64,000 nucleotides of DNA from Marchantia polymorpha subsp. ruderalis (lineage: Eukaryota; Streptophyta; Marchantiopsida; Marchantiales; Marchantiaceae): NCBI GenBank assembly GCA_037833965.1, contig AP031352.1, positions 27,530,501 to 27,594,500 on the forward strand, in the 5' to 3' direction. Shown here piece by piece: positions 6,007 to 32,571 of this stretch; position 1 is the first letter of the stretch, and each line of letters opens with the position of its first letter. Both the position numbers and the translations under genes were made by a program. The notes beneath the pieces are model-generated. The model ran no database searches and was not told where the DNA came from. It saw only the letters and a list, made by a program, of their open reading frames with translations.

Positions 6007-6038
6007 GATAGCGTAGTGCTAGTTAGGATCTTTGAGGG

Positions 6039-6045
6039 TATAAAG
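6039..6045 (+). promoter_or_regulatory. LTR TATA box (A)
   Basis: TATAAAG, 32 bases downstream of the LTR gene's stop codon. It is followed by the conserved GGCGTTTTGCC segment, where the transcript start would be expected. Confidence 0.6.
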
Positions 6046-7209
6046 TAGATCAAGGCGTTTTGCCTTGGGACTCTTCCAGTTTCGGAAGTGCAGATCAGGA
6101 ACTCACTTTCTTGGCGTGTTTGTGCATTTTGGTCCTGGCACCACGTAGAGAAGCTGCAGCATAGCGAAGTTACCGTATGTTGTAGTTGAAGGCCTTCGGC
6201 CGAATGTTCAGAGCTAGCACCCGGTTAGAGACTTGAGTAGTGCGGATCTGCACCTGCGGGTGATTTCTGATGCTCAGAGCCGGCTGCGAGTTAGATACTT
6301 GAACAGTTCCCCCTTACTCCTTCGAGTGACATATCCTGATTGTACTCCTACGGGAAGTTTCCCCTAAATGCCAATGTGAAGTTTTATTACTTCGTGTAAG
6401 CCTTGGTTTGTAATTCAGGTTGTGTGTGTGTTACTGGATTGTGTCTAAGTTAAGTTCTCAGTCGGATCTGCACTCCCTGCGTTTGGTGTGATAGTCGAGG
6501 GTGACGTCCACGGCGTATGAAGAGGCTTCGTTCCGAAGTGGGAAGTCCAGTCCGGCTGCCCTACGCTAGTTCCTGGCGGAAGGGCAGTAAAAGCCGGAGT
6601 GGGAGGCACTACCTGCAGAGCCTCTGAGTGAACTTTTGAGACACTTTCCTCCTGAAATCCGAAGCGGAGGTCCTGACCGACCTCCGAGTTGTGCTTTTGC
6701 CAGTTTCAGGTGTGTGTGTGTGTGTGTGTGTGTGTTGAGTGACCACGCTGTACCGTGCATCCTCCGAGCATTCTCCGAGTTGAGATCCTCCTCCGAGTCG
6801 AGCCTCCGAGTCGAGCACTGCAGTATTTCTGGGAGTGACAGTCGCCTAGAATTCAAACTCTACAAAAGTCTGTTAAAACGTGACACTTTTACTCTGTGTG
6901 TTGCCTCTGTCCCTGTGGGTTCGATCTTTTTACCACCATACTGCAATTTTAGCCTTTGGTGGGTTATTACACCGGCTCTAAGGATCAGAAATCACCCGCA
7001 GGTGCAGATCCGCACTACTCAAGTCTCTAACCGGGTGCTAGCTCTGAACATTCGGCCGAAGGCCTTCAACTACAACATACGGTAACTTCGCTATGCTGCA
7101 GCTTCTCTACGTGGTGCCAGGACCAAAATGCACAAACACGCCAAGAAAGTGAGTTCCTGATCTGCACTTCCGAAACTGGAAGAGTCCCAAGGCAAAACGC
7201 CTTGATCTA

Positions 7210-7248: not shown

Positions 7249-8052
7249 CTATCTACTACTCGTAACATCTGCGCGAAACCAAACTATACTACTACACTCG
7301 GCGGATCCGGTGCTGCGCCTCCTGCGCGCCGGACTGCTCCGCTCGCTGTCTCTACCTTGCCAGTCTTCCGACCGGCTGCGCAACCCCAGGCGTCGGAGCG
7401 CTGCAGTGACTTCCGACTCTAAGTGCGCCATAGTGTCGCGCGCACCCGACAAGAAGGTTTCTAATTTCCTCGCCACTCGCCGCCGACTCCGACTGTCACC
7501 CTCCGTCAATGCCGCCGCCCGAAGCTCGAACTCCCTGAGTGTGATCGTCTCTTGAGCTGCCACCTCCCAATGGGCGTATCCTTTTAGACAATGAGTCACC
7601 CGCGTCGCCAACTCTTCTCGCGCCCTGCAGCTGCCTTCCACCTCTGCTAGCTGCATTTCCGCTTCCGCACGCTGCGCCCTCAAATCCGAGCACTCGGATT
7701 GCAAGTTGCGCAACAACTCCTCATCCTCCTTGCGGGCTATTTGACTTTCTTCTAAGGCGCGCGTCTGGCGCGCAAGCTCGGCTGCTAGGACGTGGTTTTG
7801 TCTCCGCTCTTCCTGCAATTCCGACTCGATCTTTGCCCGCATTAGCTCGGCATCCGCCTGACTTTTCGTCGCCGCATCCTCCCTCTGCTGCTGCAAGGCT
7901 TGGTATAGCTTCTGTGTGACCGCCAGGTGTTGTCGGAGGGCGGTGTTCCTATCCACATATACTTGGCATCTAGAGGCCCAAATGGCCACCTTGCTCCTCG
8001 TCCTTCGCCTGATAGTCTCCACATAAGACTGCGGTTTTCCAGTACCCGCGTA
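7249..8052 (-). CDS. LTR-encoded coiled-coil protein, C-terminal part (E1)
   Basis: This is the C-terminal third of the protein encoded in the U3 part of family-1 LTRs. The reading frame is open from the E2 insertion point at 8052 to its stop. It includes the coiled coil (heptad-rich stretch with LQEERRQN, then LAAELARQTRALEE) and the conserved tail (LREFELRAA, GDSRSRR, LGLRSRSEDWQGRD, STGSAECS). The N-terminal two thirds were lost when E2 inserted and the locus was rearranged, so this copy cannot make the whole protein. The remaining part has no nonsense codon. Compared with the copies in B and C it carries scattered amino-acid changes (for example AIWASRC). The function is unknown. Confidence 0.75.
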   Translation of the reverse strand, partial: YAGTGKPQSYVETIRRRTRSKVAIWASRCQVYVDRNTALRQHLAVTQKLYQALQQQREDAATKSQADAELMRAKIESELQEERRQNHVLAAELARQTRALEESQIARKEDEELLRNLQSECSDLRAQRAEAEMQLAEVEGSCRAREELATRVTHCLKGYAHWEVAAQETITLREFELRAAALTEGDSRSRRRVARKLETFLSGARDTMAHLESEVTAALRRLGLRSRSEDWQGRDSERSSPARRRRSTGSAECSSIVWFRADVTSSR

Positions 8053-9060: not shown

Positions 9061-11154
9061 CTACACGCCTGCACGGAACCACGCTACACTACACTCCGCG
9101 GAACCTGTACTACGTCGACTGCGCGGCCGACTGCCGCGCACTAACTCCCTACCCTGCCAATCTTCCGCTCGACTGCGCAGTCCCAAACGCTGCAACGCCG
9201 CGGACACCTCCACTTCGAGGGCGGACATGGTATCCTGTGCCTTCGACAGAAAGGCATCAAGCTTCTTTGCTACCTTCCGCCGACTCCTACTGTCGCCTGA
9301 CAACAACCCGGCTGCGCGCAATTCAAACTCACGCAGTGTGAGTTTCTCCTGCGCCTTCACTTCCCAGTGGGCGTAGCCCTTGAGACAGTGGGCGACTCGC
9401 CTCGCCGTCTCCACCTTCGTGCGATCCGCCTCCTTCCTGCGATCCTCTTCAATTATCACTAATTGCGATTCGGCTTCAGCACGTTGAGCTCTCAATTCGC
9501 CACACTCTGACTGTAACCTGCGGATTAACTCTTCATCCGCCTGCCGTGCGAGCTGACATTGTTCCAACAACCGCGTCTGTCGCACGAGCTCCTCTGACAA
9601 AATCCGATTCTGGTCCTGCTCAGAAATGAGTGCTTCCTTGGCCTTCACCTGCTCCTTGGTGAGCTCGTCCAGTTTCTCATCCTTCATCTTCTCGGAGTGC
9701 TTGTAGAATTTCTGATTAAGTTTGTACTGACCCCACAAGCATGCATGCTTCTCCTTCAATTCCCTCAACTCCTGGTCCACTCTAGCTAACAGCTTGCTGG
9801 TGTGGACTTTAGTGCGAGTCCGCCTGCGCACTAACTCGATGTAAGATCCCGGCTGGAGTGGGTCGGCGTATTTATCGACCTTGCGATCCAAGTACCTCAG
9901 CAACGGAATCACCTGCTCAGAGAGCGCCGCCGCCGGCGCTCCAACAATTTCCTCCTCCTCCTCCTCGGTGTCTTCTGCTCCTGACATTTCTTCCGTGGAG
10001 CCCCCGTCGTCATCATCCGAGTGGAGAATTTCAGTCGCCATTGATTGCGTCGGCGACTGCCCCGAGTGGGGCTGCATGTCATCGACGTGTGCTGCCTGCG
10101 AAGGCACGGCTGCAGCCTCGCTGCTCGTCGCCAAAATGTCTAAGGCGGAAGGCGAATGTACTCGTGCGGCATCCCCGTCTCTCGCTTGTTGGTTGTCTAC
10201 CGCGTCCTCTCTACCGCCGTCGCCCGCCGCCGAAGGCGATCGAGCGGAGGGTGGCTGCGCGGGGTTTGATTGCGCATCGCGCATCGAAATTTCATCCCGC
10301 GGACAGTCACTCCGCTCCTCCGTCTGTTGCTGCTCCCTTGATCGGTCCGTGGGGGCTGTGCCCGGCCCGCGCGCAGGCGCAATTGCCGGCGCCTTGTCCG
10401 CCGCCGACGTAGCGCCGCGGACATCCATCGCCGAAGGCGACATGGCCGAAGGCCGCTCGCCCGATGTTCCTTGGCCTATAGGCCCTACCGCCGAAGGCGC
10501 ATCTATCGGCGGACTTCCCGCCGATGGTGCGGCCTCCGCACGCTCCCTGCTCGTATCTCCTCGGCTCGAAGGCCCTGGCGCCGAAGGCGCAAATTGCGGC
10601 GCGTGGTGCGCCGGAGGGTCTGGCCCCGAGGGCCGGTGTCTCGTAGGCGGTTCTTCCGCCGGCTCCTTCCCCTTCCTACGTTGGAACGGGGGTGATTCTT
10701 GCCTGTGCACAGGCGGCACGTGTGGAGGTGTCCTGTGCACAGGCGACCTGTGCACAGGTGAGCGCCTGTGCACAGGCGGACTGCTCCTTCCCACGCGTAA
10801 GCGTAGATCCACGTCCACTTGTGAACGCCTGTCCGCGGAGGCTCGTCCGTCCGCGGAGGCTCGTCTGTGCGCAAACGGAACATCTGTCCGTATCGCACGT
10901 GGTAACTCCGGAGGCCCTTGGCCCGTAGGCGGCCTCTCTCCCGTCGAGGTTGCAGCGGAGTCCGTTGCTCCTGCGGTCGTCCGCGCTTCCTCATGCTTCT
11001 CTGGCGACGCACTTCCTTTCTCCGTCGCAATCGTCGCCGTGTCCGCACTGTCGGCTGGTAACTCCAGTCTGCGTGCCTTCTGCTTCGGCCGGCTGTATGG
11101 CTCGCACAGCGGCCGCGGTCGAATGGGAGCAGAGGGTTCTTGATGCTGCTCCTC
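9061..11154 (-). CDS. Family-2 LTR-encoded coiled-coil protein, 5'-truncated
   Basis: One open frame of 697 codons runs from the telomere-repeat junction to its stop. The first ATG or GTG is internal, because the N-terminus was removed by the rearrangement. It is homologous to family-1 LTR residues from about 285 to the end. It begins near a PYSRPKQKARR segment and passes through PVHRR-type and PSA-type repeats, which look disordered. It then contains SALDILA, an acidic run (DDDDGGSTEE, EEEEEE), IPLLRYLDRK, a coiled coil, and the shared tail (LREFELRAA, GDSRSRR, LGLRSRAEDWQGRE, RRSTGSAECS). The two families differ strongly in the middle but stay alike in these blocks, which suggests protein-level constraint. 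The function is unknown; binding of element RNA or Gag is one possibility. Confidence 0.75.
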   Translation of the reverse strand, partial: EEQHQEPSAPIRPRPLCEPYSRPKQKARRLELPADSADTATIATEKGSASPEKHEEARTTAGATDSAATSTGERPPTGQGPPELPRAIRTDVPFAHRRASADGRASADRRSQVDVDLRLRVGRSSPPVHRRSPVHRSPVHRTPPHVPPVHRQESPPFQRRKGKEPAEEPPTRHRPSGPDPPAHHAPQFAPSAPGPSSRGDTSRERAEAAPSAGSPPIDAPSAVGPIGQGTSGERPSAMSPSAMDVRGATSAADKAPAIAPARGPGTAPTDRSREQQQTEERSDCPRDEISMRDAQSNPAQPPSARSPSAAGDGGREDAVDNQQARDGDAARVHSPSALDILATSSEAAAVPSQAAHVDDMQPHSGQSPTQSMATEILHSDDDDGGSTEEMSGAEDTEEEEEEIVGAPAAALSEQVIPLLRYLDRKVDKYADPLQPGSYIELVRRRTRTKVHTSKLLARVDQELRELKEKHACLWGQYKLNQKFYKHSEKMKDEKLDELTKEQVKAKEALISEQDQNRILSEELVRQTRLLEQCQLARQADEELIRRLQSECGELRAQRAEAESQLVIIEEDRRKEADRTKVETARRVAHCLKGYAHWEVKAQEKLTLREFELRAAGLLSGDSRSRRKVAKKLDAFLSKAQDTMSALEVEVSAALQRLGLRSRAEDWQGRELVRGSRPRSRRSTGSAECSVAWFRAGV

Positions 11155-11499: not shown

Positions 11500-13113
11500 T
11501 GTGGTACCCCACTTTTGGCAATTTTGAGGAAATTAAAACATTTTTGGAAAACTGTACCCTGGCAGCATTGTAAATAGCCTTCGGTACATCAAAACAGAGT
11601 GAATCCGGAAGATCGCGGGGATTCTCGAGAGATCTTGTAGAATCTGGGATTTGGGGTGCAGCAGTAAGGACAGGCACCACCCTCCCTGCGAGCTCTGCAG
11701 TTAGGATCTCTACGGCGCAAGGCGCAGAACCCGCCTTCGGAGGTTGCGTCCGCGGCTGTAGGGAAACCCCCCGTAATTAGGTCAACCCTCGGGCGCCTTG
11801 ACCAAGTTAGGGTCCCGTTGGAAAGAGCTCGACGCGCTGATTCCAACGAGCCCAAGAACGCTTGGAACGGATGAGGACTTAGGGAGTTATCACTATTGGA
11901 AGAAACGGAGGCGGTCGCCTACGGCGGAAAGAGTTCGCCACCGGCGCGAATTCCGCCTACGCGGAAGGGGGAATCAAGTTTTGTCCTATGCGCGGACGAA
12001 GGCGTTCGCCTGTGCACAGGCGAAGTAGGGTTAGAGGAGGCGCGAAGTCCGCCTACGCACAGGCGCTCGCCTGTGCACAGGCGCTTCGGCGTCGGCGGAA
12101 AATCCGCCTTGGGCCCTAGAAATGCGCCTTGTGAGGTAGAAGTGTACGGCGCCTTCCGCGCCAGCGCGGCGCCGCGTACGTCGGAAGAGCCGCCAGAGTA
12201 ATCAAATCGGTACGGACCATGCGGACGGGAAGGGTGGATGCGCTCTTGGACGGACGGAGTTGCGGCGGCGGAAGCGCCGAAGAAGAGACAAGGAACGGAC
12301 AGACTGGACGGAGACGGCTGACCACGGTCAACGCCTTCCGCGCCAGCGCGACGTAGCGCACGGAATTCGCCTGCGCACAGGCGAACGCCTGTGCACAGGA
12401 GGATGAAGTTCCGTGCCGGCGGAGAATCCGCCGAGGCTCCTGCCTGCGCACAGGCGGGAGTTGAACTTTTGTCCGACATGCGGACACACGCGTCAAGGCA
12501 GAGGGGGATTGGCCGAGGGGCGGTACGAACAAGTGTACCGCGCAAGGCGGAAAACTCGCCTTCGGCGTTACGCCCCCATGTCCGCAGGGTGACACGCTCG
12601 CGGAGTTCAAATCCGCCAATTCGAGCGTGAGAGTTTAATCGACGACGGCGGAGCGTGAAGCCGCGCGTGAGAGCGAAGACCGTTCCAGCGTACAGCCGGC
12701 GCGGCCATCAAGTGAGACGTTCTTCACGACCAAGAGCCGACCATGACCTTCGACCGGGCGGCGGAGAACGTCCCATTCTTGAATTCGCGATTCCAATCTC
12801 TTGTGCGCGCTGCGCGCATCCATCTGCTGGCTGCGGAACATTCTCGACGTCGTCGCACAGGAGATTTCTTGTTGATTGAGGGAGAAGTGAGTGCGCGTGA
12901 TTTGGAATTGAGGGCGATTAGAGTTTGCCGAGAGAGAAAGAAGCGCGGGCAGTGCGGAAGTAGAATGAGCGGGCGAGCGAACCCCAGGAACGCAATGACG
13001 AGACCGAGCAGATTGCGGATGGTGCCACTTCGCCTACCGCAGAACGGGCTGCGCGCTTTTGAGGAGCGCTTAATAGCAAGAAAGCTCGATTTCTTGCTAT
13101 GGGGATGGAATTA
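11500..13113 (+). repeat. 3' LTR of E3 (family 2), 5' part
   Basis: The LTR starts TGTGGTACCCCAC at 11500. It contains a hairpin module near 11811-11853 (GTTGGAA paired with TTCCAAC), several CCTGTGCACAGG or CCTGCGCACAGG palindromes (about 12000-12090, 12370-12400 and 12440), many CGCC(T)TCGGCG words, and the first codons of the family-2 LTR gene. It is cut at 13114 by element B. Confidence 0.85.
12995..13113 (+). pseudogene. Family-2 LTR gene, first 39 codons, cut by element B
   Basis: The ATG at 12995 is equivalent to the start of the family-1 LTR gene. The segments PLRLPQNGLRAFEERL and KLDFLLWGWN match PLRVPQIGLRAFQDVL and KLDFLLWGWN of family 1. Element B inserted right after the WGWN codons, so the rest of the gene is gone from this copy. 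An upstream open frame (from 12743) is continuous with it, but the family-1 comparison supports 12995 as the start. Confidence 0.75.
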
Positions 13114-14418
13114 TGTGGTAACACACTTTTTGTTTTTTTTACAGAATTTAAACAATTTTAGAAAACTAGTACCAAAGCAGTGTTTGTAGCTAGAGAAGGG
13201 TACGCTAAATAGAGTGGATTGATGAGATCGTCACGAGGGCACAAAGAATCACGTAGTCGGATGTACCAACGCCAACGTCTTCGGCGCCTTCGGCAAAAGC
13301 TCCTTTTTGAGGTGTCTCTACTCACGCGCCTCTAGCGTATAAGGAAGCTACGCTTCCGGCGCAGACACCTCAGGAGGAGGTTTTGCTAAAGACGTCAGGA
13401 GAAGGGCCCGGACCTCTAAAGGCATCCGACCATGAGTGCGCCTTCGGCGAAGCGCCGCTAGCGCGGAAAGGGAAAACCTTCATAACAATCGGGATACACG
13501 GTAGATCCAGTTGGTTGAAGTTGCATTAGAAAGAGCTCGGGACGCTCGTTCTAACGAGTCCAAGAGCGCCGGAGATGGATCAGGAATGGAGAAGTTATGA
13601 GCGTCGGAAAACTCGTAGCCGGACATGCGCCGTTCGCGCTAGGGTTCACAGCCGGAAAGGATTCCCGTACGCCCTCGGCGATGCGCCTTCGGCGGAATCA
13701 CGCGCTCACAGGAGGAAGCCAACTCAGAGTCGGAAGCGCCCTTGGCGGCTGTTCATGGAAGGAAAGCGCCGGTCGGATGTACGCCTCCGACGTGGCGCTG
13801 ACGGCCGGATGCGCTGGCATGAGTTGCGCTGACGGATATGCGCTGGCAGCAACGGACGAGGCATAAAGGACAAAATAGGCGGTACGACTGCGCGCCGGCG
13901 TAATTCGCTCCGGCTGGATGTGCGCCTCCAGCAAGGCGCCGACGGATAATGAACGCGCCAGCGGCGACACGCCTCCGGAGAAGGGCGGGTTAGGAAAAGA
14001 CAACAGGGCCGACGTATACCCTGCAGCGGACTCGAGTCCGGAAGGTGGCGGCGGCGGGAGAATTCAACGTTTAAGCATGCGAATGCGCGCAATGCGGGGA
14101 CGTGAATTCGCGCATGCGAAGGGCGAACCGTTAAGCCGTATAGCCGGCTGCGTACGTTGCAACCAGTAAGAACGTTGGACGTTCTTGAAATCGGAGAAGA
14201 AAAGACTGCGCTCCAGTCTCATTCTCTCATTCTTGACTTTGCAATTTCCAGTTCCAAGATTACGCGCAAGGGCGGAGCGACCTGCAGTGAGAGTAGAGAG
14301 TGCGGAGACGAGTTGCACAAGGATCTTGGCGGACCTTGAAAGAATTGGGAGTAGCGATCTTGAACGAGCGCAGAGAGAGTGAGCGAAAGGGAGAACGTTT
14401 GTGTGTGCAGGCAACGCA

Positions 14419-16974
14419 ATGTCGAAGGTTCCCCAACTGCGAGTGTCTCCACTCAGGGTGCCGCAGATCGGTCTACGCGCATTTCAAGATGTGCTGACGA
14501 GGCTGAAGCTCGATTTTCTCCTCTGGGGGTGGAATTGGACGTGTCCGGAGATGGTGCGCGAGTATCTGCAAGAGAGACACAAGCCTTCTCGCGGATTTCG
14601 CCCACACCCAGAGAGATGGGAAATTTGCAATTGGGCGCAGGTGTTGGGCAGGTGTGCCGGCGAGGAAGGGGATCTCCTCTTCGAGGCCGACAGCGTGAAA
14701 GTGTCCCAGGAGGAAGAAGTCTCTTACAATGAGCTCTTCAAGGTGGCTAGACATCCCAAGAACGGTTTCCGGACTCGGGATTACAAGGATCGATTGCGGA
14801 GAAATGTCGCGACAGCATTGCTGCAGATATTGCAGCCGACCAAGACCGCTTACATGCATGGTTGGCAGGTAGAGTTCGTGGAGCTAGTGTTGTCAGGAGC
14901 TCCGGTGCATTGGGCACGGCTCCTGTGGAAGGTGACGCGCCAACATGCGCAAGAAGAGAGGGGAGGAACGCTCAATCATCTATCGCCTTACTTAATCGTG
15001 TTTTACCGGGCGATGGGATGTTTGACGAATGCTGAGAAAACTCGGTTTCCGCAGCTGAGCCGGTCTTATCCAGGTAGATATTCGAGGGAGGCCGAAGTAG
15101 ACACGGATCCGGACGAGGAACCTGCCAGTACGCCTCCGGCTCCGGCTCCAGCCAGAGCAGCAGAAGAACGTCGAAGTGAGCGCATTCCGCGAAAGCGGAA
15201 GTGGGATGAGAGACCTGAGGACAGGCAGCCGGAAGTGCCAGCTGCGCCGACTCGTGGTCGGCCCACCCCCGAGCCTCATAGTCGACCAAAACAGAGGGCA
15301 CGCAGAATGCCAACTGTTACTGAGGAGACCAGGCGAACTCCGACCCGGCGGAATCTCACACAGGAAGAGATAATTGCTCAGGTCCTAGGGAAGACGGCAG
15401 AAACCTCTGCACAGAAGGCACCACGGCCTTCGGGAGGAGATGGACGGACTGACAGCCGGCCGACTGCGAGTCGGATGACTGAAGGTCGACAAGCGGAAGG
15501 AAGGCCAACTGAACGGCGCGTTGAACCGGACAGCAGGCCGGAAGCAGAAGAGAGTTTGGCTGACGAGCCAACAATCCTCAAAGGGTCGTCTTCGGCGGAA
15601 GGCACTTCTGGAAGAACGCCCCCAACAAGCAGGCCAAGTGGAGTCAAGACGCGCAGGGTGTATCCGACTCCCAGTCGGACAACTGCTGGTCGGCCGACTG
15701 CGAGTCGGACAACAGAGAGTCAGCCGGATTCGCCGACTGCGAGACGGATGGGGCCAACGACCAGTGTGCGGACGCCTTCGGCGGACGCACCTTCAGCAAG
15801 GACACCTTCCGCGCAGATTGCGCCGGAAGGACAGGCAGCAGAAGCGGGCGGTGCAAGAGTGACAAAAGTCACTGCGGCGTCGACCCCTTCACAAACCGAA
15901 GATCGAGCCGGAACAGGGGCTCAAGCAGTAGGATCTCCCACTGCCCTGGATATTTTAGCAGGCAGTGGAGCAGCAGTCGCAGCAGAAGCTGCTGCGCGCC
16001 ACAGTTCCAGGGAGTCGCCAAGGGATTCGGTGGCGACTGAAATCCTCGAGACTGAGGATGATACGAGCTCGGAAGAGCAGGAAGCGGATTCGGTGCAGAA
16101 AACGCCAACAGGGGTGCTGTGCGAACAGATAGTTCCACTCCTGCGATATCTGGATCGCAAGACATCCAAATACGGAAGTGCCTTAAAACCGCAGTCTTAT
16201 GTGGAGACTATCAGGCGAAGGACGAGGATCAAGGTGGCAAAGTGGGCCTCTAGTTGCCAAGTATATGTGGAAAGGAACACCGCCCTCCGACAACACCTGG
16301 CGGTCACCCAGAAGCTGTACCAAGCCTTGCAGCAGCAGAAGGAGGATGCGGCGACGAAGAGTCAGGCGGAGGCCGAACTAATACGGGCAAAGATCGAGTC
16401 GGAACTGCAGGAGGAGCGGAGACAGAACAACGTCCTAGCAGCCGAGCTTGCGCGCCAGACGCGCGCCTTAGAAGAAAGTCAAAGAGCCCGCAAGGAGGAT
16501 GAGGAGTTGTTGTGCAACTTGCAATCCGAGTGCTCGGATTTGAGGGCACAACGTGCGGGATTAGAAATGCAGCTGGCCGAGGTGGAGAGCAGCTGCAGGG
16601 CACGAGGAGAGTTGGCGGCACGGGTGACTCGTTGTCTAAACGGATACACCCATTGGGAGGTGGCAGCTCAAGAGAGGGTTACACTCCGGGAGTTCGAGCT
16701 TCGGGCGGCGGCCTTGACGGAAGGTGACAGTCGGAGTCGGCGGCGAGTGGCGAGAAAATTAGAAACTTTCTTGTCGGGTGCGCGCGACACTATGGCGCAC
16801 TTGCAGTCGGAAGTCACTGCAGCGCTCCGACGCCTGGGGTTACGCAGCCGGTCGGAAGACTGGCAAGGTAGAGACAGTAAGCGGAGCAGTCCGGCGCGCA
16901 GGAGGCGCAGCACCGGATCTGCTGAGTGCAGTAGAGTAGTTTGGTTTCGCGCAGATACTGCGAGTGGTAGATAG
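14419..16974 (+). CDS. LTR (U3)-encoded coiled-coil protein, intact (B)
   Basis: An 851-residue protein of unknown function is encoded wholly inside the LTR. ATG 14419 is chosen because all copies align from MSKVPQLRV; the frame is open slightly further upstream. Residues 1-230 form a W-rich region (LLWGWNW, then QPTKTAYMHGW, LSGAPVHWARLLW). It faintly resembles the N-terminal domain of proteins annotated as putative plant transposon proteins, but this is a weak inference. A basic RIPRKRKW segment near 254 could be a nuclear signal. Residues 270-600 are rich in Ser, Thr, Pro and Arg and look disordered, with an acidic patch near 545-560. Residues 615-740 form a coiled coil, followed by a conserved basic tail (LREFELRAA, LGLRSRSEDWQGRD). 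There is no signal peptide or membrane segment. The stop lies 33 bases before the LTR TATA box. Confidence 0.8.
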   Translation: MSKVPQLRVSPLRVPQIGLRAFQDVLTRLKLDFLLWGWNWTCPEMVREYLQERHKPSRGFRPHPERWEICNWAQVLGRCAGEEGDLLFEADSVKVSQEEEVSYNELFKVARHPKNGFRTRDYKDRLRRNVATALLQILQPTKTAYMHGWQVEFVELVLSGAPVHWARLLWKVTRQHAQEERGGTLNHLSPYLIVFYRAMGCLTNAEKTRFPQLSRSYPGRYSREAEVDTDPDEEPASTPPAPAPARAAEERRSERIPRKRKWDERPEDRQPEVPAAPTRGRPTPEPHSRPKQRARRMPTVTEETRRTPTRRNLTQEEIIAQVLGKTAETSAQKAPRPSGGDGRTDSRPTASRMTEGRQAEGRPTERRVEPDSRPEAEESLADEPTILKGSSSAEGTSGRTPPTSRPSGVKTRRVYPTPSRTTAGRPTASRTTESQPDSPTARRMGPTTSVRTPSADAPSARTPSAQIAPEGQAAEAGGARVTKVTAASTPSQTEDRAGTGAQAVGSPTALDILAGSGAAVAAEAAARHSSRESPRDSVATEILETEDDTSSEEQEADSVQKTPTGVLCEQIVPLLRYLDRKTSKYGSALKPQSYVETIRRRTRIKVAKWASSCQVYVERNTALRQHLAVTQKLYQALQQQKEDAATKSQAEAELIRAKIESELQEERRQNNVLAAELARQTRALEESQRARKEDEELLCNLQSECSDLRAQRAGLEMQLAEVESSCRARGELAARVTRCLNGYTHWEVAAQERVTLREFELRAAALTEGDSRSRRRVARKLETFLSGARDTMAHLQSEVTAALRRLGLRSRSEDWQGRDSKRSSPARRRRSTGSAECSRVVWFRADTASGR

Positions 16975-17007
16975 GATAGCGTAGTGCTAGTTAGGATCTT
17001 TTGAGAG

Positions 17008-17014
17008 TATAAAG
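17008..17014 (+). promoter_or_regulatory. LTR TATA box (B)
   Basis: TATAAAG, 33 bases after the LTR gene's stop. Genomic RNA would start about 25-35 bases further on, so the LTR gene lies in U3 and appears only at the 3' end of genomic RNA. Confidence 0.65.
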
Positions 17015-17959
17015 TAGATCAAGGCGTTTTGCCTTGGGGACTCTTCCAGTTTCAGAAGTACAGATCAGGAACTCACTTTCTTGGCGTGTTTGTGCATTTT
17101 TGGTCCTGGCACCACGTAGAGAAGCTGCAGCATAGCGAAGTTACCGTATGTTGTAGTTGAAGGCCTTCGGCTGAATGTTCAGAGCTCGCACCCGGTTAGA
17201 GACTTGAGTAGTGCGGATCTGCACCTGCGGGTGATTTCTGATGCTCAGAGCCGGCTGCGAGTTAGATACTTGAACAGTTCCCCCTTACTCCTTCGAGTGA
17301 CATATCCTGATTGTACTCCTACGGGAAGTTTCCCCTGAATGCCAATGTGAAGTTTCATTACTTCGTGTAAACCTTGGTTTGTAATTCAGGTTGTGTGTGT
17401 GTTACTGGATCGTGTTTTCAGTAAGTTCTCAGTCGGGTCTGCACTCCCTGCGTTTTGTGTGATAGTCGAGGGTGACGTCCACGGCGTACGTAGAGGCTTC
17501 GTTCCGAAGTGAGAAGTCCAGTCCGGGTACCCCCGCTAGTTCCTGGCGGAAGGGCAGTAAAAGCCGGAGTGGGAGGCACTTCCTGCAGAACCTCTGAGTG
17601 AACTTGCGAGACACTTTCCTCCTGAAATCCGAAGCGGAGGTCCTGACCGACCTCCGAGTTGTGCTTTTTGCCAGATTCAGGTGTGTGTGTGTGTGTGTGT
17701 GTTGAGTGACCAAGCTGTACCGTGCATCCTCCGAGCATCCTCCGAGTTGAGATCCTCCTCCGAGTCGAGCCTCCGAGTCGAGCACTGCAGTATTTCTGGG
17801 AGTGACAGTCGCCTAGAATTCAAACTCTACAAAAGTCTGTTAAACGTGACACTTTTACTCTGTGTGTTGCCTCTGTCCCTGTGGGTTCGATCTTTTTACC
17901 ACCATACTGCAGTTTTAGCCTTTGGTGGGTTATTACATAAGGAGCCGACAACTTCTTTT

Positions 17960-17977
17960 TGGCGCCGCTGCCGGGGA
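17960..17977 (+). promoter_or_regulatory. Primer-binding site (B), tRNA-Asp-like
   Basis: TGGCGCCGCTGCCGGGGA is the usual form of the tRNA-Asp-complementary primer site of many plant gypsy elements. It starts 22 bases after the LTR end, a somewhat larger gap than usual. Confidence 0.85.
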
Positions 17978-18020
17978 CAGTGCGTCAACACCAGAATACT
18001 TGAGCAGCAATGCTCGGTGA

Positions 18021-19934
18021 ATGTCGACGAGCGATAGTGTGGGAAACCTGAGTGCGAGAGCCACACGGAAACTCCGTCGAGATTCAGAAAAAGCCGTGGA
18101 AACAAAACGGCGAACTAAAAAGAAGACCCCCGGTGAAGACTCTGCAGAAAGATCGCCATCACCGACTACTGGAAGACAAAGGCGTTCCAGTTCACCTACC
18201 GAGAGCATTGAGCTAACAGTTCTATTGGACATCCCTCCGACGGGAACTCTTCCTGAGTTTGGCCAACCTAGGATCAGTCCGTCGACAGGATCACCGATGG
18301 CAGAACATCAAGCCAATCTCCGCCAGGTGTTTTCCCAACCTACCACCAAACATTCGTATCCAAGATACACGGGAACGGGCGACGACGATGATGCAGATTC
18401 ATACATAAAGCTCTTCGAGTCGGTCTCCATCGCCAATCGTGAGACCAGTGATGAAGACAGACTACGAATCTTTCCTAGCCTGCTACGCAGACGAGCGCGT
18501 AGCTGGTACAACCATGAGAGCACCGACCCCACTGGCATCCGGACCTGGGCTCAGCTCAAGGAAAAGTTTCTGAGGCGGTTCCGCGAACTCGGATATGACA
18601 GTCGAGTTCTGACCCGACTTCGAAATCTTCGACGCGAGCGGAAGGAGAATCTTCGAGACTACACTGAGAGATTCCAAGACCTCCTAGATCGAATTCCGAA
18701 GACAGGCCCGGGAGAACCGTATTCGGTACAACAGGCAGTGGATTGGTATGTGACAGGGCTCTCAAGAGAAATGGAGACCTTCTGTAGGAGAGGCAAGACT
18801 GACACAATCCAAGATGTGATAGCTTCCGCGGAGACTTTTGAGACGTCAACCCTTGACACTCGAAGACGCGACCGACGGTCGACGAAGAAGAAGTCGCAAG
18901 GCGGACGTCGGAAGAGAAGGAACTCGCCTTCCTCGACAGAAGAGTCAAGTTCCTCCGAATCAAGTTCTTCCTCGGAAGAGGAAGAGGACTCGTCATCTTC
19001 AGAAGAAGAAAGACGGAAGAAGAAACGCAGTGCGACCAAGAAGAAGGATCGAGGTAAGGGAATCCCAGTGAAGACTCAAGGGGACATCGCAGCCAAGGTA
19101 GACAACCTGGTGAAGAATTTTGCGGACCTGAAAGTTCATGTAGTGGGAGGCCAAGACCGACGTAAATCACCTGCGAGACAACGAGCGAATCTCTGGTGTA
19201 CTACGTGCGGACAGGTGGGACATGCCAACACGGAGTGCATGTCCGCGCGGCCATCTTACCCAGTGAATGCGGTCGAATGGGCACCACAGTGGGAGAACCC
19301 CATGTATTATGCTGAGCCACCTATGTATTATGCTGAGCAGGTTGAGGACACCGCCTACTCAGTACAGACAGCTCCAGCTACAACTCCGAACCCACCGGTG
19401 CATATACCGCGCTTTGTTCCAAGGGAAATGGCGGGTACACTCCCACCAAGACGCATGGCACCTCCAGGCAATCACAACCGACCTCGACCACAATTCGATG
19501 GTTGCTACAACTGCGGAGACATGGGGCATTACGCGCCAAGTTGTCCCCACCCGAGGAAGCCAATGGGGTATGCACCATTGTGCAGCAATTGCAAGAAGTC
19601 CGGACATACAGCAGCTGAATGTGATCAGCCCCAACTCCCTAGGCCAGCCGTGCGTTTCGTATCAACACCTGGCAAGGAAGAAGTGCAGGTCAACCAGGTA
19701 GAACTGAGTTTGGACCCAGCTGAAGGAGACGAAGTATGGCCAGAGGAAGAAGTAATGTGCGGTCGGGTAGAAACCCGAAGTTCGAAGAGGAGAGGAGAAG
19801 GCCACGAGGACACTCGCCGCCTCGAGCGTAGGGAAGAGAGGAGGAAGTCTAAAGAAGTTAGAGAAGGCCAGAGGAGAAGGCCGGGTACACCTCCGGCTAT
19901 GAGAAACACCCAGCCGGAGCAGAACTCAGACTAG
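18021..19934 (+). CDS. gag: Gag polyprotein with three zinc knuckles (B)
   Basis: The structural protein of the virus-like particle, 637 residues. ATG 18021 is the first good start after the primer site. Residues about 135-245 match the retrotransposon Gag capsid-type domain (RRRARSWYNHE, then WAQLKEKFLRRF and LRDYTERFQDLLDRIP). A Ser/Glu-rich low-complexity stretch follows, near 305-335. Three CCHC zinc knuckles lie near residues 392 (CTTCGQVGHANTEC), 494 (CYNCGDMGHYAPSC) and 520 (CSNCKKSGHTAAEC); most plant gypsy Gags have one or two. The C-terminus is highly charged. It ends at TAG 19932-19934, after which the same frame stays open into protease, so readthrough could make Gag-Pro. The matching gene in C is split by element D. 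Confidence 0.92.
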   Translation: MSTSDSVGNLSARATRKLRRDSEKAVETKRRTKKKTPGEDSAERSPSPTTGRQRRSSSPTESIELTVLLDIPPTGTLPEFGQPRISPSTGSPMAEHQANLRQVFSQPTTKHSYPRYTGTGDDDDADSYIKLFESVSIANRETSDEDRLRIFPSLLRRRARSWYNHESTDPTGIRTWAQLKEKFLRRFRELGYDSRVLTRLRNLRRERKENLRDYTERFQDLLDRIPKTGPGEPYSVQQAVDWYVTGLSREMETFCRRGKTDTIQDVIASAETFETSTLDTRRRDRRSTKKKSQGGRRKRRNSPSSTEESSSSESSSSSEEEEDSSSSEEERRKKKRSATKKKDRGKGIPVKTQGDIAAKVDNLVKNFADLKVHVVGGQDRRKSPARQRANLWCTTCGQVGHANTECMSARPSYPVNAVEWAPQWENPMYYAEPPMYYAEQVEDTAYSVQTAPATTPNPPVHIPRFVPREMAGTLPPRRMAPPGNHNRPRPQFDGCYNCGDMGHYAPSCPHPRKPMGYAPLCSNCKKSGHTAAECDQPQLPRPAVRFVSTPGKEEVQVNQVELSLDPAEGDEVWPEEEVMCGRVETRSSKRRGEGHEDTRRLERREERRKSKEVREGQRRRPGTPPAMRNTQPEQNSD

Positions 19935-20849
19935 GCGGACAGGTATTCAGAAGAGTTCCGGACTCGAGATTACCTTCCGGACATCAAAGATGAGGTGAGT
20001 CACCTCATCAAGGAAGCACTGGGCGCCGGAATGACATCCGACGACCGGAAGGCGGTTAGGCCCCCTACACCCCTTCCGACCGCGAGTACAGGGAAACTTC
20101 CGGCCGTGACTTTTAACACTTCCTACGACATAGTGAAAGACATGGGGAGCCAGAGGGCAAATATTTCCTTCCACCAGTTGTTGGAAGACAATAAGACGTA
20201 CAGGAGGATGCTGATGCTTTCGTTGCGCCGACCACGCAAACCCCGAAAAGAGAAACTTCCGGCTGTGTACAGAGTGGAAGGAGGAGACCTGGGACCTCCA
20301 GAGATCGAAGTAGAGATCGGAGGCTGCGTCATTCAGAAGGTACCAGTGGACTCCGGCTCGGGCGTGAATATCATGACCGAGGAGACAGCGAACTCCTTGG
20401 GGTTCCAGACCTTCGAGCCTACATCCCGAGTATTGCGACTGGCCGATCAAACACGCAGAATGCCACTAGGAATGTTGAGCAATGTGAGAACCAACATTGG
20501 AGGAGTGGACTTTCAACTGTCCTACATAATACTGCAACCTCTGATGAAGAAAGGTTATGATGTGCTGCTTGGCAGACCTTGGCTATACGATGCCAAAGCA
20601 AGGTGTGACTGGAGTAGGAAGAGATTACAGTTCCGTAGCCCTGCTGACCCTCCGACTGTCATTACCGTACCGTGGACCAAGGTACCCCATGAGGGCGAAA
20701 CACCTTCCACCACCTCCGGTTACACAACCGGAGGGGAGACCAGCTCATCATGCACTTCAGAGACCGAAACGTCGGAAGAATTTGTGGGCTACGTCACTTG
20801 CTGCTCTATTGAGGAGGAAGGAGACGCGGTATATCCGGATGACGAATAG
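19935..20849 (+). CDS. pro: Aspartic protease (B), in frame after gag TAG
   Basis: A retropepsin-type protease that would process the polyprotein. The catalytic segment is VPVDSGSGVNIM, with DSG in place of the common DTG, and a second hydrophobic segment YDVLLGRPWL matches the typical GRPWL block. There is no convincing ATG near the beginning. The frame is continuous with gag apart from the single TAG at 19932-19934, so expression by readthrough is more likely than a separate start. It ends with TAG at 20847-20849, followed directly by CAACTA, and the same frame then continues into reverse transcriptase. The protease in element C has the same sequence. Confidence 0.88.
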   Translation, partial: ADRYSEEFRTRDYLPDIKDEVSHLIKEALGAGMTSDDRKAVRPPTPLPTASTGKLPAVTFNTSYDIVKDMGSQRANISFHQLLEDNKTYRRMLMLSLRRPRKPRKEKLPAVYRVEGGDLGPPEIEVEIGGCVIQKVPVDSGSGVNIMTEETANSLGFQTFEPTSRVLRLADQTRRMPLGMLSNVRTNIGGVDFQLSYIILQPLMKKGYDVLLGRPWLYDAKARCDWSRKRLQFRSPADPPTVITVPWTKVPHEGETPSTTSGYTTGGETSSSCTSETETSEEFVGYVTCCSIEEEGDAVYPDDE

Positions 20850-20855
20850 CAACTA
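20847..20855 (+). promoter_or_regulatory. Candidate stop-codon readthrough site TAGCAACTA (B)
   Basis: The in-frame TAG between protease and reverse transcriptase is followed by CAA CTA. This fits UAG-CAR-YYA, the context known to promote readthrough in tobamoviruses. No other stop interrupts the frame between protease and reverse transcriptase. The same nine bases occur in element C (26134-26142, minus strand). Confidence 0.65.
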
Positions 20856-22422
20856 GCAGCCGGACTGGGCAGAAGCGAGATCAGTCACACAGAGGGGATT
20901 GTTGACCCGAGTGATTGCTGCGAACTGCAACTCAGTCCAGGTAAAGGCTTGAAGGTGTCAAGCCAGGTACAAGGAGAAGAGTTGAACAGGGTACAGGCGT
21001 TTCTTCGCCAGTATGAGGATGTCTTCGCATGGAAGATTGAAGACATGAAAGGCATACCTGCAAGGTATGGAGAGCACAGAATCGACTTGTTGGACGAGGC
21101 AGTTCCGGTTCGCCAACGCCAATACAGGCTCAACCCAAAATATTCATTATTGGTGAAGGACGAAATCGATAAGTACCTGAGCGCAGGAATCATCTACCCG
21201 GTACTTAGTAGCGAGTGGGTGTCGCCTATCGTGATCGTGCCCAAGAAACTGACGGGTAAGATCCGGGTGTGTCAGGACTTCAGGAAGCTGAACGCAGCAA
21301 CGCGGAAGGACCATCACCCTCTTCCTTTCACGGACTCTATTCTGGACCATGTAGCAGGGCATGAATGCTACAGTTTCCTAGACGGATTTTCCGGCTACAA
21401 CCAGGTGTCCATCAGGGAACAGGACAAGGACAAAACAACCTTCACAACCGACTGGGGAACCTATGCTTATCACAAGATGCCGTTCGGTCTGTGCAACGCG
21501 CCAGCGACGTTCCAGCGGATGATGACAAACATCTTCCAAGAACACCTGAGGAAGTTCCTAGAAATTTTCATCGACGACTTTTGTGTCTTCGGTAAGAGGT
21601 CGGAGCACCTTAACCATCTTCGGCAAACGTTCGACAGATGTAGGGAGAGCAGCTTGTCCTTACACCCTGAGAAATGTTTTTTCTTCATGACCAGCAGAAT
21701 CCTGCTGGGGCACCGAGTTTCGTCCGATGGCATTGCAGTGGATGTAGAGAAGGTGAAGATTATTCTTGAACTGCAGCCGCCAACGCATCTGCGTGAGTTG
21801 AGGGCCTTCCTTGGCCATGTAGGTTATTACAGAAGGTTCATAAATATGTATGCCATCTTGGCAGCCGATCTGACGAAGCTGCTTAAGAAGGATGAACTCT
21901 ATGTGTGGGGCAAGGAGCAACAGCTGGCCTTTGAAACGCTCAAAGCCAAACTGACGACTGCTCCGGTTCTGAGAAGTCCGGATTGGAACAGACCTTTCCA
22001 TGTCTATGTAGACACGTCGGCGTTTGCAATCGGGGTGGTTCTCAGTCAGAAGGACGACAACAAGAAAGACTACCCGATTTACTTCGCGAGTCGTCAGTTG
22101 TCAGCAGCAGAGAAGAAGTACACGACAACTGAGAGGGAGGCGTTGGGAATGGTGTACTCCTGCAAGAAGTTCCGACATTATTTGATCTGCTATGAGTTCG
22201 TGTTTCATGTAGATCATTACGCCTTACAGCACCTGGTGAAGAAGGCGGATCTGTCCGGACGAATTGCCAGGTGGGTACTACTGCTGCAGGAATTCACCTA
22301 TACTGTACAGACACGGAAAGGCGTTCACCATGAGAACGCGGACTACCTCTCCCGACTATGGACCGAATCCATAGAAGAGGAAGTAGTGGATGATTTTCCC
22401 GACGAACAACTTTTTCAGTTGT
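20850..22422 (+). pseudogene. pol: Reverse transcriptase-RNase H (B), truncated
   Basis: The RT blocks are visible: SPIVIVPKKLTGKIRVCQDFRKLN, read as overlapping short motifs SPIVIVPKK and RVCQDFRKLN, then FLDGFSGYNQV, FGLCNAPATFQRMM and the catalytic IDDF. RNase H follows with HVYVDTSAFAIGVVL, TTEREALGM and FHVDHYALQHL, so the catalytic Asp and Glu residues are kept. The frame loses element sequence at about 22422, where inverted LTR sequence of C begins. An open frame continues about 66 codons into that LTR, giving a chimeric tail without meaning. Integrase is missing. The start follows the protease TAG by readthrough; there is no early ATG. Confidence 0.9.
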
Positions 22423-23261
22423 TCATTATCCGTCGGCGCCTTGCTGGAGGCGCACATCCAGTCGGATCGAATTATGCCGGCGCGCAGTCGTACCGCCTAT
22501 TTTGTCCTTTATGCCTCGTCCGTTGCTGCCGGCGCATATCCGCCAGCGCAACTCATGTCAGCGCATCCGACTGTCAGCGCCACGTCGGAGGCGTACATCC
22601 GACCGGCGCTTTCCTTCCATGAACAGCCGCCAAAGGCGCTTCCGACTCTGAGTGGGTTTCCTCCTATGAGCGCGTGATTCCACCGAAGGCGCATCGCCGA
22701 GGGCGTACGGGAATCCTTTCCGGCTGTGAACCCTAGCGCGAACGGCGCATGTCCGGCTACGAGTTTTCCGACGCTCATAACTTCTCCATTCCTGATCCAT
22801 CTCCGACGCTCTTGGACTCGTTAGAACGAGCATCCCGAGCTCTTTCTAATGCAACTTTAACCAACTGGATCTACCGTGTATCCCGATTGTTATGAAGGTT
22901 TTCCCTTTTCGTGCTAGCGGCGCTTCGCCGAAGGCGCACTCATGGTCGGATGCCTTTAGAGGTCCGGGCCCTTCTCCTGACGTCTTTAGCAAAACCTCCT
23001 CCTGAGGTGTCTGCGCCGGAAGCGTAGCTTCCTTATACGCTAGAGGCGCGTGAATAGAGACACCTCAAAAAGGAGCTTTTGCCGAAGGCGCCGAAGACGT
23101 TGGCGTTGGTACATCCGACTACGTGATTCTTTGTGCCCTCGTGACGATCTCATCAATCCACTCTATTTAGCGTACCCTTCTCTAGCTACAAACACTGCTT
23201 TGGTACTAGTTTTCTAAAATTGTTTAAATTCTGCAAAAAAAACAAAAAGTGTGTTACCACA
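22423..23261 (-). repeat. 3' LTR of element C, first 0.84 kb only
   Basis: It starts (minus strand) TGTGGTAACACAC at 23261, next to the polypurine tract, and stops at 22423 where it meets RT of element B. It carries one copy of a 17-base unit (CGCATCCGACTGTCAG) that is doubled in the 5' LTR. Confidence 0.9.
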
Positions 23262-23274
23262 TGCCCCCCTCCTC
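23262..23274 (-). promoter_or_regulatory. Polypurine tract (C)
   Basis: GAGGAGGGGGGCA on the minus strand abuts the 3' LTR start. It is identical to the tract in E3. Confidence 0.88.
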
Positions 23275-23298
23275 AAATTTGAGCGCCCACGCGAACAT

Positions 23299-24282
23299 TT
23301 ACACGTGGTATTTCTTCAGACGCCATCCGTTCACGCGGGTGCCAAACCATTCTCCCGTCAGTTCTGCGAGTTGGATGGATCCATTTGGAAAAACTTCTAT
23401 CACCTTGTAAGGTCCCATCCACCTCAAGTGGAGCTTGCCTGGAAATCTAGCATGTCTGCTATCGTATAGCAGAGCCAAGTCGCCCTTCTCCAGCAGTACT
23501 GGTTTGAGTCTTCGATCGTACTTCTCCTTCCGCCTGAGTTGTAATTGCTTTGTTCGATCTTCGGCTTCTTGACGTCTTTCCTCCAGTGCCATTACCTCTT
23601 GCAGTCGATATGCCTGACTTTCCTCCGCGTCCAGCCTTCTCTGATCTAAGGTCCTCTTCGTAGGTATCTCGAATTCGATGGGTAAGATCGGATGCTGCCC
23701 ATAAACTAGGAAGTAAGGTGTTTGCCTGGTGGTGACTTTTTCTGCCGTTCTATATGCCCATAAGGCGGCCGGTAGCTTGGTGTCCCAGTCATGAGCATGG
23801 TTTACAGTTACCTTGAGGAGTATCTTACAGAGTAATCCATTGGACTTCTCTGTCAGACCATTTGCCTTGGGGTTGTAAGGAGTAGTCTTCCGATGCTTAA
23901 TCTGGAAGTGCCGCGTCAAACTCTCTATCACCTGATTCAGAAAGTGCGTCCCTCTGTCACTGACTATTTCTAGGGGGCACCCGTAGCGTGTGATGATTGA
24001 TTCGAATAGGAACCGTGCTACTGCGGCTGCGTCGTCGTGCCTTGTGGCTTCTGCCTCCACCATCTTGGTCGCATAGTCTGTTGCTACCAATATGTAGCGC
24101 CTGCGCGTGCCTTTAGTGACAGGTTGTATTGGTCCCACGAAGTCGATCCCCCATTTTTCAAACGGTGCCAATGGCATGATTGGTGTAAGAGGCCATCTCG
24201 TGGTCGGAGTCGGCCTTCCCGTTCTCTGGCAGCTGTCGCATTTGCGAACGTAGTCGTGTACATCTTTGAACATCGTCGGCCA
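23299..24282 (-). CDS. int: Integrase (C), after an in-frame TGA
   Basis: This enzyme inserts the element's DNA. The zinc-binding region straddles the upstream stop: the HH part (GGHYATRN) lies before it and the CC part (RKCDSCQRTGRP) after it. The catalytic triad is visible: Asp in KWGIDFVGP, Asp in VSDRGTHF, and Glu in ANGLTEKSNGLL. A GPY/F-type C-terminal domain follows (LRWMGPYKVIEVFPNGS) and the protein ends GWRLKKYHV without a chromodomain. TGA at 24283-24285 separates it from RNase H in the same frame, where related proteins have an aromatic residue in a GYxWPTM-like motif. This is most simply a point mutation. Element B lacks the region, so no second copy is available for comparison. 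Confidence 0.88.
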   Translation of the reverse strand, partial: WPTMFKDVHDYVRKCDSCQRTGRPTPTTRWPLTPIMPLAPFEKWGIDFVGPIQPVTKGTRRRYILVATDYATKMVEAEATRHDDAAAVARFLFESIITRYGCPLEIVSDRGTHFLNQVIESLTRHFQIKHRKTTPYNPKANGLTEKSNGLLCKILLKVTVNHAHDWDTKLPAALWAYRTAEKVTTRQTPYFLVYGQHPILPIEFEIPTKRTLDQRRLDAEESQAYRLQEVMALEERRQEAEDRTKQLQLRRKEKYDRRLKPVLLEKGDLALLYDSRHARFPGKLHLRWMGPYKVIEVFPNGSIQLAELTGEWFGTRVNGWRLKKYHV

Positions 24283-26139
24283 TCAGTATCCTGCATTCAC
24301 AATTTTGGTCACTGTGTTTCTGGTGGCGTAGTGACCACCAGCGTCTTCTGTGTGCATGGCTTTGACAACTCGCGGTACTTCAGACTCCTCTAGACATCTG
24401 CACAACCTCTCGTCTGCCATTTTCTTGAACAAGACCCCTTGTTGGAGCTGGTAAGGTCCCGCTTTATGAACGAAGACTGTGCGCTGCTCTGCATCCAATC
24501 CTTCCGGACATTGGAGTGTGAGCAGGAACCTGTATAAGTCCGCGTACCTGGACTCATGGCTGGCGGACAACTGAAAAAGTTGTTCGTCGGGAAAATCATC
24601 CACTACTTCCTCTTCTATGGATTCGGTCCATAGTCGGGAGAGGTAGTCCGCGTTCTCATGGTGAACGCCTTTCCGTGTCTGTACAGTATAGGTGAATTCC
24701 TGCAGCAGTAGTACCCACCTGGCAATTCGTCCGGACAGATCCGCCTTCTTCACCAGGTGCTGTAAGGCGTAATGATCTACATGAAACACGAACTCATAGC
24801 AGATCAAATAATGTCGGAACTTCTTGCAGGAGTACACCATTCCCAACGCCTCCCTCTCAGTTGTCGTGTACTTCTTCTCTGCTGCTGACAACTGACGACT
24901 CGCGAAGTAAATCGGGTAGTCTTTCTTGTTGTCGTCCTTCTGACTGAGAACCACCCCGATTGCAAACGCCGACGTGTCTACATAGACATGGAAAGGTCTG
25001 TTCCAATCCGGACTTCTCAGAACCGGAGCAGTCGTCAGTTTGGCTTTGAGCGTTTCAAAGGCCAGCTGTTGCTCCTTGCCCCACACATAGGGTTCATCCT
25101 TCTTAAGCAGCTTCGTCAGATCGGCTGCCAAGATGGCATACATATTTATGAACCTTCTGTAATAACCTACATGGCCAAGGAAGGCCCTCAACTCACGCAG
25201 ATGCGTTGGCGGCTGCAGTTCAAGAATAATCTTCACCTTCTCTACATCCACTGCAATGCCATCGGACGAAACTCGGTGCCCCAGCAGGATTCCGCTGGTC
25301 ATGAAGAAAAAACATTTCTCAGGGTGTAAGGACAAGCTGCTCTCCCTACATCTGTCGAACGTTTGCCGAAGATGGTTAAGGTGCTCCGACCTCTTACCGA
25401 AGACACAAAAGTCGTCGATGAAAATTTCTAGGAACTTCCTCAGGTGTTCTTGGAAGATGTTTGTCATCATCCGCTGGAACGTCGCTGGCGCGTTGCACAG
25501 ACCGAACGGCATCTTGTGATAAGCATAGGTTCCCCAGTCGGTTGTGAAGGTTGTTTTGTCCATGTCCTGTTCCCTGATGGACACCTGGTTGTAGCCGGAA
25601 AATCCGTCTAGGAAACTGTAGCATTCATGCCCTGCTACATGGTCCAGAATAGAGTCCGTGAAAGGAAGAGGGTGATGGTCCTTCCGCGTTGCTGCGTTCA
25701 GCTTCCTGAAGTCCTGACACACCCGGATCTTACCCGTCAGTTTCTTGGGCACGATCACGATAGGCGACACCCACTCGCTACTAAGTACCGGGTAGATGAT
25801 TCCTGCGCTCAGGTACTTATCGATTTCGTCCTTCACCAATAATGAATATTTTGGGTTGAGCCTGTATTGGCGTTGGCGAACCGGAACTGCCTCGTCCAAC
25901 AAGTCGATTCTGTGCTCTCCATACCTTGCAGGTATGCCTTTCATGTCTTCAATCTTCCATGCGAAGACATCCTCATACTGGCGAAGAAACGCCTGTACCC
26001 TGTTCAACTCTTCTCCTTGTACCTGGCTTGACACCTTCAAGCCTTTACCTGGACTGAGTTGCAGTTCGCAGCAATCACTCGGGTCAACAATCCCCTCTGT
26101 GTGACTGATCTCGCTTCTGCCCAGTCCGGCTGCTAGTTG
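24283..26139 (-). CDS. pol: Reverse transcriptase-RNase H (C)
   Basis: The enzyme copies the RNA into DNA and removes the RNA strand. It has the same motifs as in element B: RVCQDFRKLN, FLDGFSGYNQV, FGLCNAPATF and catalytic IDDF, then RNase H with YVDTSAFAIG, TTEREAL and FHVDHYALQHL. After RNase H come an integrase linker and the start of the integrase zinc region (GGHYATRN). The frame opens right after the protease TAG (26140-26142) and has no other stop until TGA 24283-24285. Only a handful of residues differ from element B. Confidence 0.9.
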   Translation of the reverse strand, partial: QLAAGLGRSEISHTEGIVDPSDCCELQLSPGKGLKVSSQVQGEELNRVQAFLRQYEDVFAWKIEDMKGIPARYGEHRIDLLDEAVPVRQRQYRLNPKYSLLVKDEIDKYLSAGIIYPVLSSEWVSPIVIVPKKLTGKIRVCQDFRKLNAATRKDHHPLPFTDSILDHVAGHECYSFLDGFSGYNQVSIREQDMDKTTFTTDWGTYAYHKMPFGLCNAPATFQRMMTNIFQEHLRKFLEIFIDDFCVFGKRSEHLNHLRQTFDRCRESSLSLHPEKCFFFMTSGILLGHRVSSDGIAVDVEKVKIILELQPPTHLRELRAFLGHVGYYRRFINMYAILAADLTKLLKKDEPYVWGKEQQLAFETLKAKLTTAPVLRSPDWNRPFHVYVDTSAFAIGVVLSQKDDNKKDYPIYFASRQLSAAEKKYTTTEREALGMVYSCKKFRHYLICYEFVFHVDHYALQHLVKKADLSGRIARWVLLLQEFTYTVQTRKGVHHENADYLSRLWTESIEEEVVDDFPDEQLFQLSASHESRYADLYRFLLTLQCPEGLDAEQRTVFVHKAGPYQLQQGVLFKKMADERLCRCLEESEVPRVVKAMHTEDAGGHYATRNTVTKIVNAGY

Positions 26140-26142
26140 CTA
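26134..26142 (-). promoter_or_regulatory. Candidate stop-codon readthrough site TAGCAACTA (C)
   Basis: Minus-strand TAG CAA CTA between protease and reverse transcriptase, identical to the site in element B and in the same frame as both genes. Confidence 0.65.
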
Positions 26143-28681: not shown

Positions 28682-28688
28682 TTTTATA
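28682..28688 (-). promoter_or_regulatory. LTR TATA box (D)
   Basis: TATAAAA on the minus strand in the same context as in E2. It is retained although the upstream gene is absent. Confidence 0.6.
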
Positions 28689-31525: not shown

Positions 31526-31568
31526 TCACCGAGCATTGCTGCTCAAGTATTCTGGTGTTGACGCACTG

Positions 31569-32538: not shown

Positions 32539-32571
32539 CTCTCAAAAGATCCTAACTAGCACTACGCTATC

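Follow-up and report, generated by a model that had tools for sequence, protein, structure and literature searches.

Accessory genes can reach into the unique 3′ (U3) part of a long terminal repeat (LTR): the nef gene of human immunodeficiency virus (HIV) does so partly, and is expressed from spliced RNA. In mouse mammary tumor virus (MMTV) and related endogenous betaretroviruses, the sag gene lies mostly in U3 and persists in solo LTRs; the sections on sag in PMC4667437 further report several promoters, one of them in the LTR, and purifying selection, with an omega of 0.289 in one test. For plants, the relevant portions of two accounts describe additional open reading frames (ORFs) in the internal region (PMC6317226), those of Athila, Grande (gene23), RIRE2, Retand and SIRE for the most part downstream of pol and upstream of the 3′ LTR, with a promoter of their own or a nuclear product in some cases (PMC7264820). 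Rice Retrosat2 is described, in the passage of PMC3485330 devoted to it, as having an LTR of more than 3.2 kb together with ORF0, an additional frame whose function is unknown. Here we analyze an 851-codon gene lying entirely inside the LTR of a Ty3/gypsy family (family 1) of the liverwort Marchantia polymorpha subsp. ruderalis. It was met in a stretch of 64,000 nucleotides (contig AP031352.1 of assembly GCA_037833965.1, positions 27,530,501 to 27,594,500 of the forward strand), hereafter the window, in whose own numbering positions are given.

Copy B of the family has the following layout.

13114 to 17937, plus strand: LTR of copy B, the 5′ LTR of a truncated element, 4,824 bp, beginning TGTGG and ending TTACA, with TAAGGAGCCG 3′ of it and a primer-binding-site (PBS)-like motif downstream
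13114 to 14418, plus strand: noncoding part of the putative U3 upstream of the gene, of low between-family identity, with 19 ATGs upstream of the initiator-like block
14226 to 14255, plus strand: initiator-like conserved block (identity 0.79), the proposed promoter and start of the gene's own mRNA
14419 to 16974, plus strand: the uninterrupted 851-codon gene assigned to U3, with an N-terminal domain (residues 1-230), a basic motif near residue 257, a variable linker and a helical-looking C-terminal part
17008 to 17013, plus strand: TATAAA, presumed promoter of the genomic RNA, present in 9/9 copies aligned from several families
17960 to 17977, plus strand: PBS-like motif, TGGCGCCGCTGCCGGGGA
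18021 to 19934, plus strand: gag ORF of copy B (Retrotrans_gag, zinc knuckles)
20019 to 22421, plus strand: protease and reverse transcriptase-RNase H (RT-RNase H) ORFs of copy B, truncated at about 22421

The ORF makes up 53% of this LTR, and exactly 33 bases separate its stop codon from TATAAA. A second intact copy of it stands at 32572-35127 on the minus strand, within copy C. Pfam matches on copies B and C give gag, protease, RT-RNase H and integrase in gypsy order, the pol of B ending before integrase; in C the integrase frame stops 37 nt short of the LTR, with nothing between pol and the polypurine tract. The PBS-like motif begins 22 nt beyond the LTR end (17938-17977), an unusually wide gap.

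The 4.85-kb repeat is an LTR, and full elements hold two copies of the gene. The genome (241 Mb, 9 contigs) was searched with the LTR's first 487 bases, and the 40 best of 1,642 candidates were fetched, a sample skewed to young copies. All 40 have identical LTR termini, and in 15 the polypurine tract GAGGGGGGCA stands immediately before the LTR. Each of the six LTR pairs scored is flanked by identical 5-bp target duplications, with 1-9 differences per ~4,870 bp. In five pairs, each LTR has an intact ORF; in the sixth, the 5′ LTR has a stop at codon 804. A further pair, L013/L012, has the duplication GACTT. Three solo LTRs with target duplications (L022, L023 and L024) were recognized, two with the full ORF and L024 without its N-terminal part; L017, flagged as solo, spans parts of two LTRs and was left out of this count. 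Paired copies, target duplications and solo LTRs together rule out that the repeat is anything other than an LTR. Among the fetched copies, three distinct deletions (927, 1042 and 799 nt; L041-L045, L016 and L024) remove the N-terminal part of the ORF, and L033-L035 and L043-L045 are tandem elements of three LTRs and two internal regions with a single target duplication outside.

The frame itself has been kept. Within the 40 fetched copies, 21 ORFs have neither stop nor indel and 26 retain start and frame; the other 14 show frameshift, stops, truncation or N-terminal deletion, or are composite. A separate protein search (13,525 candidates) left 49 of 53 scored copies without a stop, these being ranked by protein similarity and hence also biased, and yielded 12 pairs at 10,646-10,662 bp spacing with the ORF open in both members. 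Over 33 distinct family-1 sequences (excluding composite L017 and copy A, an older copy in the window), the ratio of nonsynonymous to synonymous differences per site (pN/pS, Nei-Gojobori) is 0.254 in frame, as against 1.63 and 1.12 with the frame shifted by one and two, which rules out a chance ORF. By part, it is 0.111 for residues 1-230, 0.348 for 231-510 and 0.309 for 511-851; comparing copy A with the family yields 0.290.

Variants shared between insertions and those private to one differ in kind. In 40 sequences forming 26 insertion groups (with B and C, but without A, L017 and L048, the last being a duplicate of B), the shared variants comprise 53 synonymous, 37 nonsynonymous and 0 stops and the private ones 59, 74 and 4 (Fisher p = 0.022), with per-site ratios of 0.23 and 0.43, respectively. 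Private variants are thus relaxed relative to shared ones, the pattern expected if selection acts on elements that keep copying, and their ratio still falls below 1 because some arose before insertion. Against four copies from other families, dN/dS (the corresponding substitution-rate ratio) is 0.14-0.20 for the N-terminal part, at dS 1.4-2.2; for the C-terminal part it is 0.215 against L049, dS being saturated for the other three. Between-family identity at the three codon positions is 0.72/0.76/0.49 and 0.65/0.74/0.44. We take these substitution patterns to show that the ORF is coding and under purifying selection.

Much of what the initial annotation had put forward stands up to these data. 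It had described an 851-codon gene occupying over half of an LTR and ending 33 bases before the TATA box, and the coordinates agree; it had expected two gene copies in each full element and one in solo LTRs, as is seen in the scored pairs and in two of the three solo LTRs; and it had argued from intact copies against chance, proposing dN/dS and stop counts as a check, which yield a ratio far below 1 and few stops in young copies.

The layout extends beyond family 1. L050, a solo LTR of another family with ~46% protein identity, has the duplication CGTTT on both sides and a related, broken ORF inside; its LTR starts with TGTGGTAA and ends with TTATTACA, and it alone among the other-family copies shows both LTR ends. 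In L049 the 5′ end is visible and the 3′ part inverted, in L051 the 3′ end is visible, and L052 has a second LTR start downstream of the ORF. In the most distant lineage seen (L053 and L054), the LTR 3′ part likewise follows the ORF, no LTR ends being recognized there. Judged from these relatives, the gene-in-LTR arrangement is old. We reject a host gene captured once, as the named homologues found are all from Marchantia and the layout recurs in another family.

Where the gene sits relative to the genomic RNA is judged from the noncoding DNA around it. When B is compared with L049, L050 and L051, identity in the leader is 0.38-0.42 (0.38 over 13214-14200), rises to 0.79 at 14226-14255, and reaches 0.85 over the TATA block (17005-17060) and 0.82 over the next 340 nt. 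The genomic RNA is expected to start at the TATA block that follows the stop codon, and this would place the gene in U3, in line with the initial annotation. Were the genomic RNA to start upstream of the ORF instead, the gene would belong to the repeat/unique 5′ (R/U5) part or the 5′ leader and be translated first. The conserved upstream block could then be the sole start, and in one public gene model, P0015, gag is fused to residues of the ORF, possibly through a prediction error; however, the TATA box and its downstream block, the best conserved noncoding DNA, sit after the ORF, and we consider such a start distinctly improbable. A palindrome, CAAGGC-GTTTT-GCCTTG, lies at 17020-17036, downstream of the TATA box and ahead of the presumed start site; that of the second family is CCAGGC...GCCTGG, changed on both sides.

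The upstream block, CTCATTCTTGA, fits the plant initiator consensus and recurs at 12772-12794 in an independent fragment (20/23). From this block to the ORF, 11 of 14 copies (several of the 14 being near-identical family-1 copies) contain no ATG, and beyond the block ATGs resume; an extra ATG following the block is in frame in two copies, the independent fragment and L051. From the conserved block and the ATG-free leader we infer that the gene has its own promoter in the LTR. The same U3 gene might alternatively be translated as nef is, from a spliced subgenomic mRNA joining a donor in the 5′ leader to an acceptor that lies, in the 3′ LTR, just ahead of the ATG; a separate promoter would then be unnecessary. 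Family 1 does have TGTGTGTGCAG immediately before the ATG, and retroviral U3 genes can come from spliced RNAs, but the acceptor-like stretch is not common to L049-L052 and it is the upstream block and ATG-free leader that are conserved instead; we regard splicing as rather unlikely. The initial annotation had left the choice between an own promoter and a spliced mRNA undecided: the upstream block favors the former, but it is lacking in the most distant lineage.

The N-terminal domain of the predicted protein is conserved; after it come a basic PRKRK-like motif (found with a loose pattern in 26/36 relatives reaching that point), a variable P/S/T/G-rich linker and a helical-looking C-terminal part. 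A helix-period measure peaks near residue 766, outside the apparent coiled coil (~615-725 by eye). Athila PF03078, Transposase_28, the plant mobile domain and Transposase_32 gave no match to the ORF (E 10) or to 17 relatives (E 5). The residue pattern of the N-terminal domain may at most be reminiscent of plant transposon domains of the Transposase_32 type. Genome-wide searches with PF20167 and PF03078 returned nothing over the cut-off, control genomes being likewise silent, so that these are little informative. The search of solved structures produced no convincing match (best E 0.015), and Rfam none over the gathering score. The named protein homologues found all come from Marchantia, two of the searches having scored the 8,000 best candidates and some matches being assembly contigs; one M. 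polymorpha protein, P0016, matches residues 1-254 at 100%.

Taken together, these results make it fairly probable that we are dealing with a Ty3/gypsy U3 accessory gene with its own initiator-type promoter and, probably, a nuclear trans-acting product. On this reading, the family would carry the gene wholly within the U3 of its LTR, and reverse transcription would copy the 3′ U3 of the genomic RNA into both LTRs, thus giving two gene copies per insertion and leaving one in a solo LTR. The initiator-type promoter would lie in the LTR ~190-250 nt upstream of the ATG, and the conserved TATA box after the gene's stop would start the genomic RNA. The protein would most probably act in trans in the nucleus, for example in element transcription, nuclear entry of the pre-integration complex or anti-silencing. 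As to how this arose, a gene that once stood downstream of pol, ahead of the 3′ LTR, could have joined U3 when the polypurine tract, the plus-strand primer, moved upstream. One might go further and view the LTR as a self-contained gene cassette comprising initiator promoter, 5′ untranslated region, accessory gene, the element's terminator and a second promoter for the genomic RNA. Each insertion would then amount to two genes, LTR-LTR recombination would leave one stand-alone gene, and the element would be a plant counterpart of MMTV sag reached via a polypurine-tract shift; this wider proposal we put forward tentatively, as plausible but somewhat short of even chances.

Several observations weigh against the accessory-gene reading. 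No Pfam family explains the ORF or 16 relatives, which gave only weak coiled-coil and low-complexity matches, and two structure predictions of the N-terminal domain were unusable (predicted local distance difference test, pLDDT, 48 and 47). A coiled coil is weakly suggested, by the residue pattern and sub-threshold Pfam matches, and it is the basic motif that points to a nuclear role. L053 and L054 lack the upstream block, agreeing with it at 12 and 13 of 23 positions, no better than shuffled sequence; in L049, two ATGs that follow the block are out of frame. Most listed older copies and relatives carry stops. Finally, derivatives L043-L045, which have lost the first 309 codons, carry the target duplication GCGCA and have thus moved, which means that the gene is not strictly required in cis; action in trans is compatible with this, and dispensability equally so. 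These last two observations, the broken older copies and the mobile derivatives, also count against the picture drawn by the initial annotation.

The same two facts are what an ORF without current function would lead one to expect, a passenger open merely through the youth of its copies, and the 1-9 differences per ~4,870 bp between paired LTRs agree with such youth. Youth accounts for open frames, but not for a pN/pS of 0.25 with a third-position excess, nor for constraint on shared variants and between families; a passenger is, in our estimation, very improbable.

The other related features in the window are these.

31609 to 36498, minus strand: 5′ LTR of copy C, with the intact ORF
22421 to 23261, minus strand: initial portion of copy C's 3′ LTR, with the polypurine tract before it
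2091 to 6971, plus strand: older LTR copy A, whose broken ORF has stops at codons 262 and 377
7252 to 8052, minus strand: partial copy, ORF residues 585-851
9061 to 11109, minus strand: related ORF of a second family, without the N-terminal part
12995 to 13113, plus strand: beginning of another family's related ORF, split by the insertion of copy B

A complete element is absent from the window: copy B is cut near 22421 and fused to the 3′ LTR piece of copy C, so that B (13114-22421) and C (22421-36498) face each other across an inverted join. Within copy C, a fragment belonging to a second family begins at 27714. Identity between B and C rises from 97.0% ahead of the ORF (13114-14384) to 99.1% from the ORF onward (14373-19280), a jump that suggests recombination between subfamilies. 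Further along, 43104-43864 and 57343-58112 are related stretches ~14 kb apart and 82% alike, the second encoding the C-terminal part of a lipoxygenase.

LTRs are commonly regarded as noncoding; here, an LTR keeps a whole gene under selection. As a plant case outside the vertebrate retroviruses, it allows direct study of how U3 comes to hold an accessory gene and how such a gene is expressed when each element has two copies. It also bears on annotation: public protein sets for Marchantia list relatives of the ORF as hypothetical (e.g. P0001, Mp_8g15400), and LTRs can thus pass for host genes. If the view of the LTR as a gene cassette is true, the family scatters gene units through the genome.

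We know of no homology between HIV nef and the U3 ORF, and nef lies only partly in U3, whereas the liverwort gene appears to lie there wholly. The open-access literature searched reports no plant retrotransposon with a gene inside its LTR; subscription papers fell mostly outside this search, which is not proof of absence. Retrosat2 is similar in combining a large LTR with an extra ORF, but the part of its description concerned (PMC3485330) does not place ORF0 in the LTR. The additional ORFs of other plant elements are likewise extra genes; the present one differs from them in standing inside the LTR, both in family 1 and in the solo LTR L050, and in matching none of their Pfam domains. No sequence relation to sag was found among the named protein matches, all from Marchantia, no direct comparison with sag having been made. 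The liverwort element differs from MMTV in its plant host, in having no env and in holding its gene wholly inside the LTR where sag is only mostly in U3; it resembles the sag system in the probable U3 position of the gene, in its persistence in solo LTRs and in the purifying selection on it.

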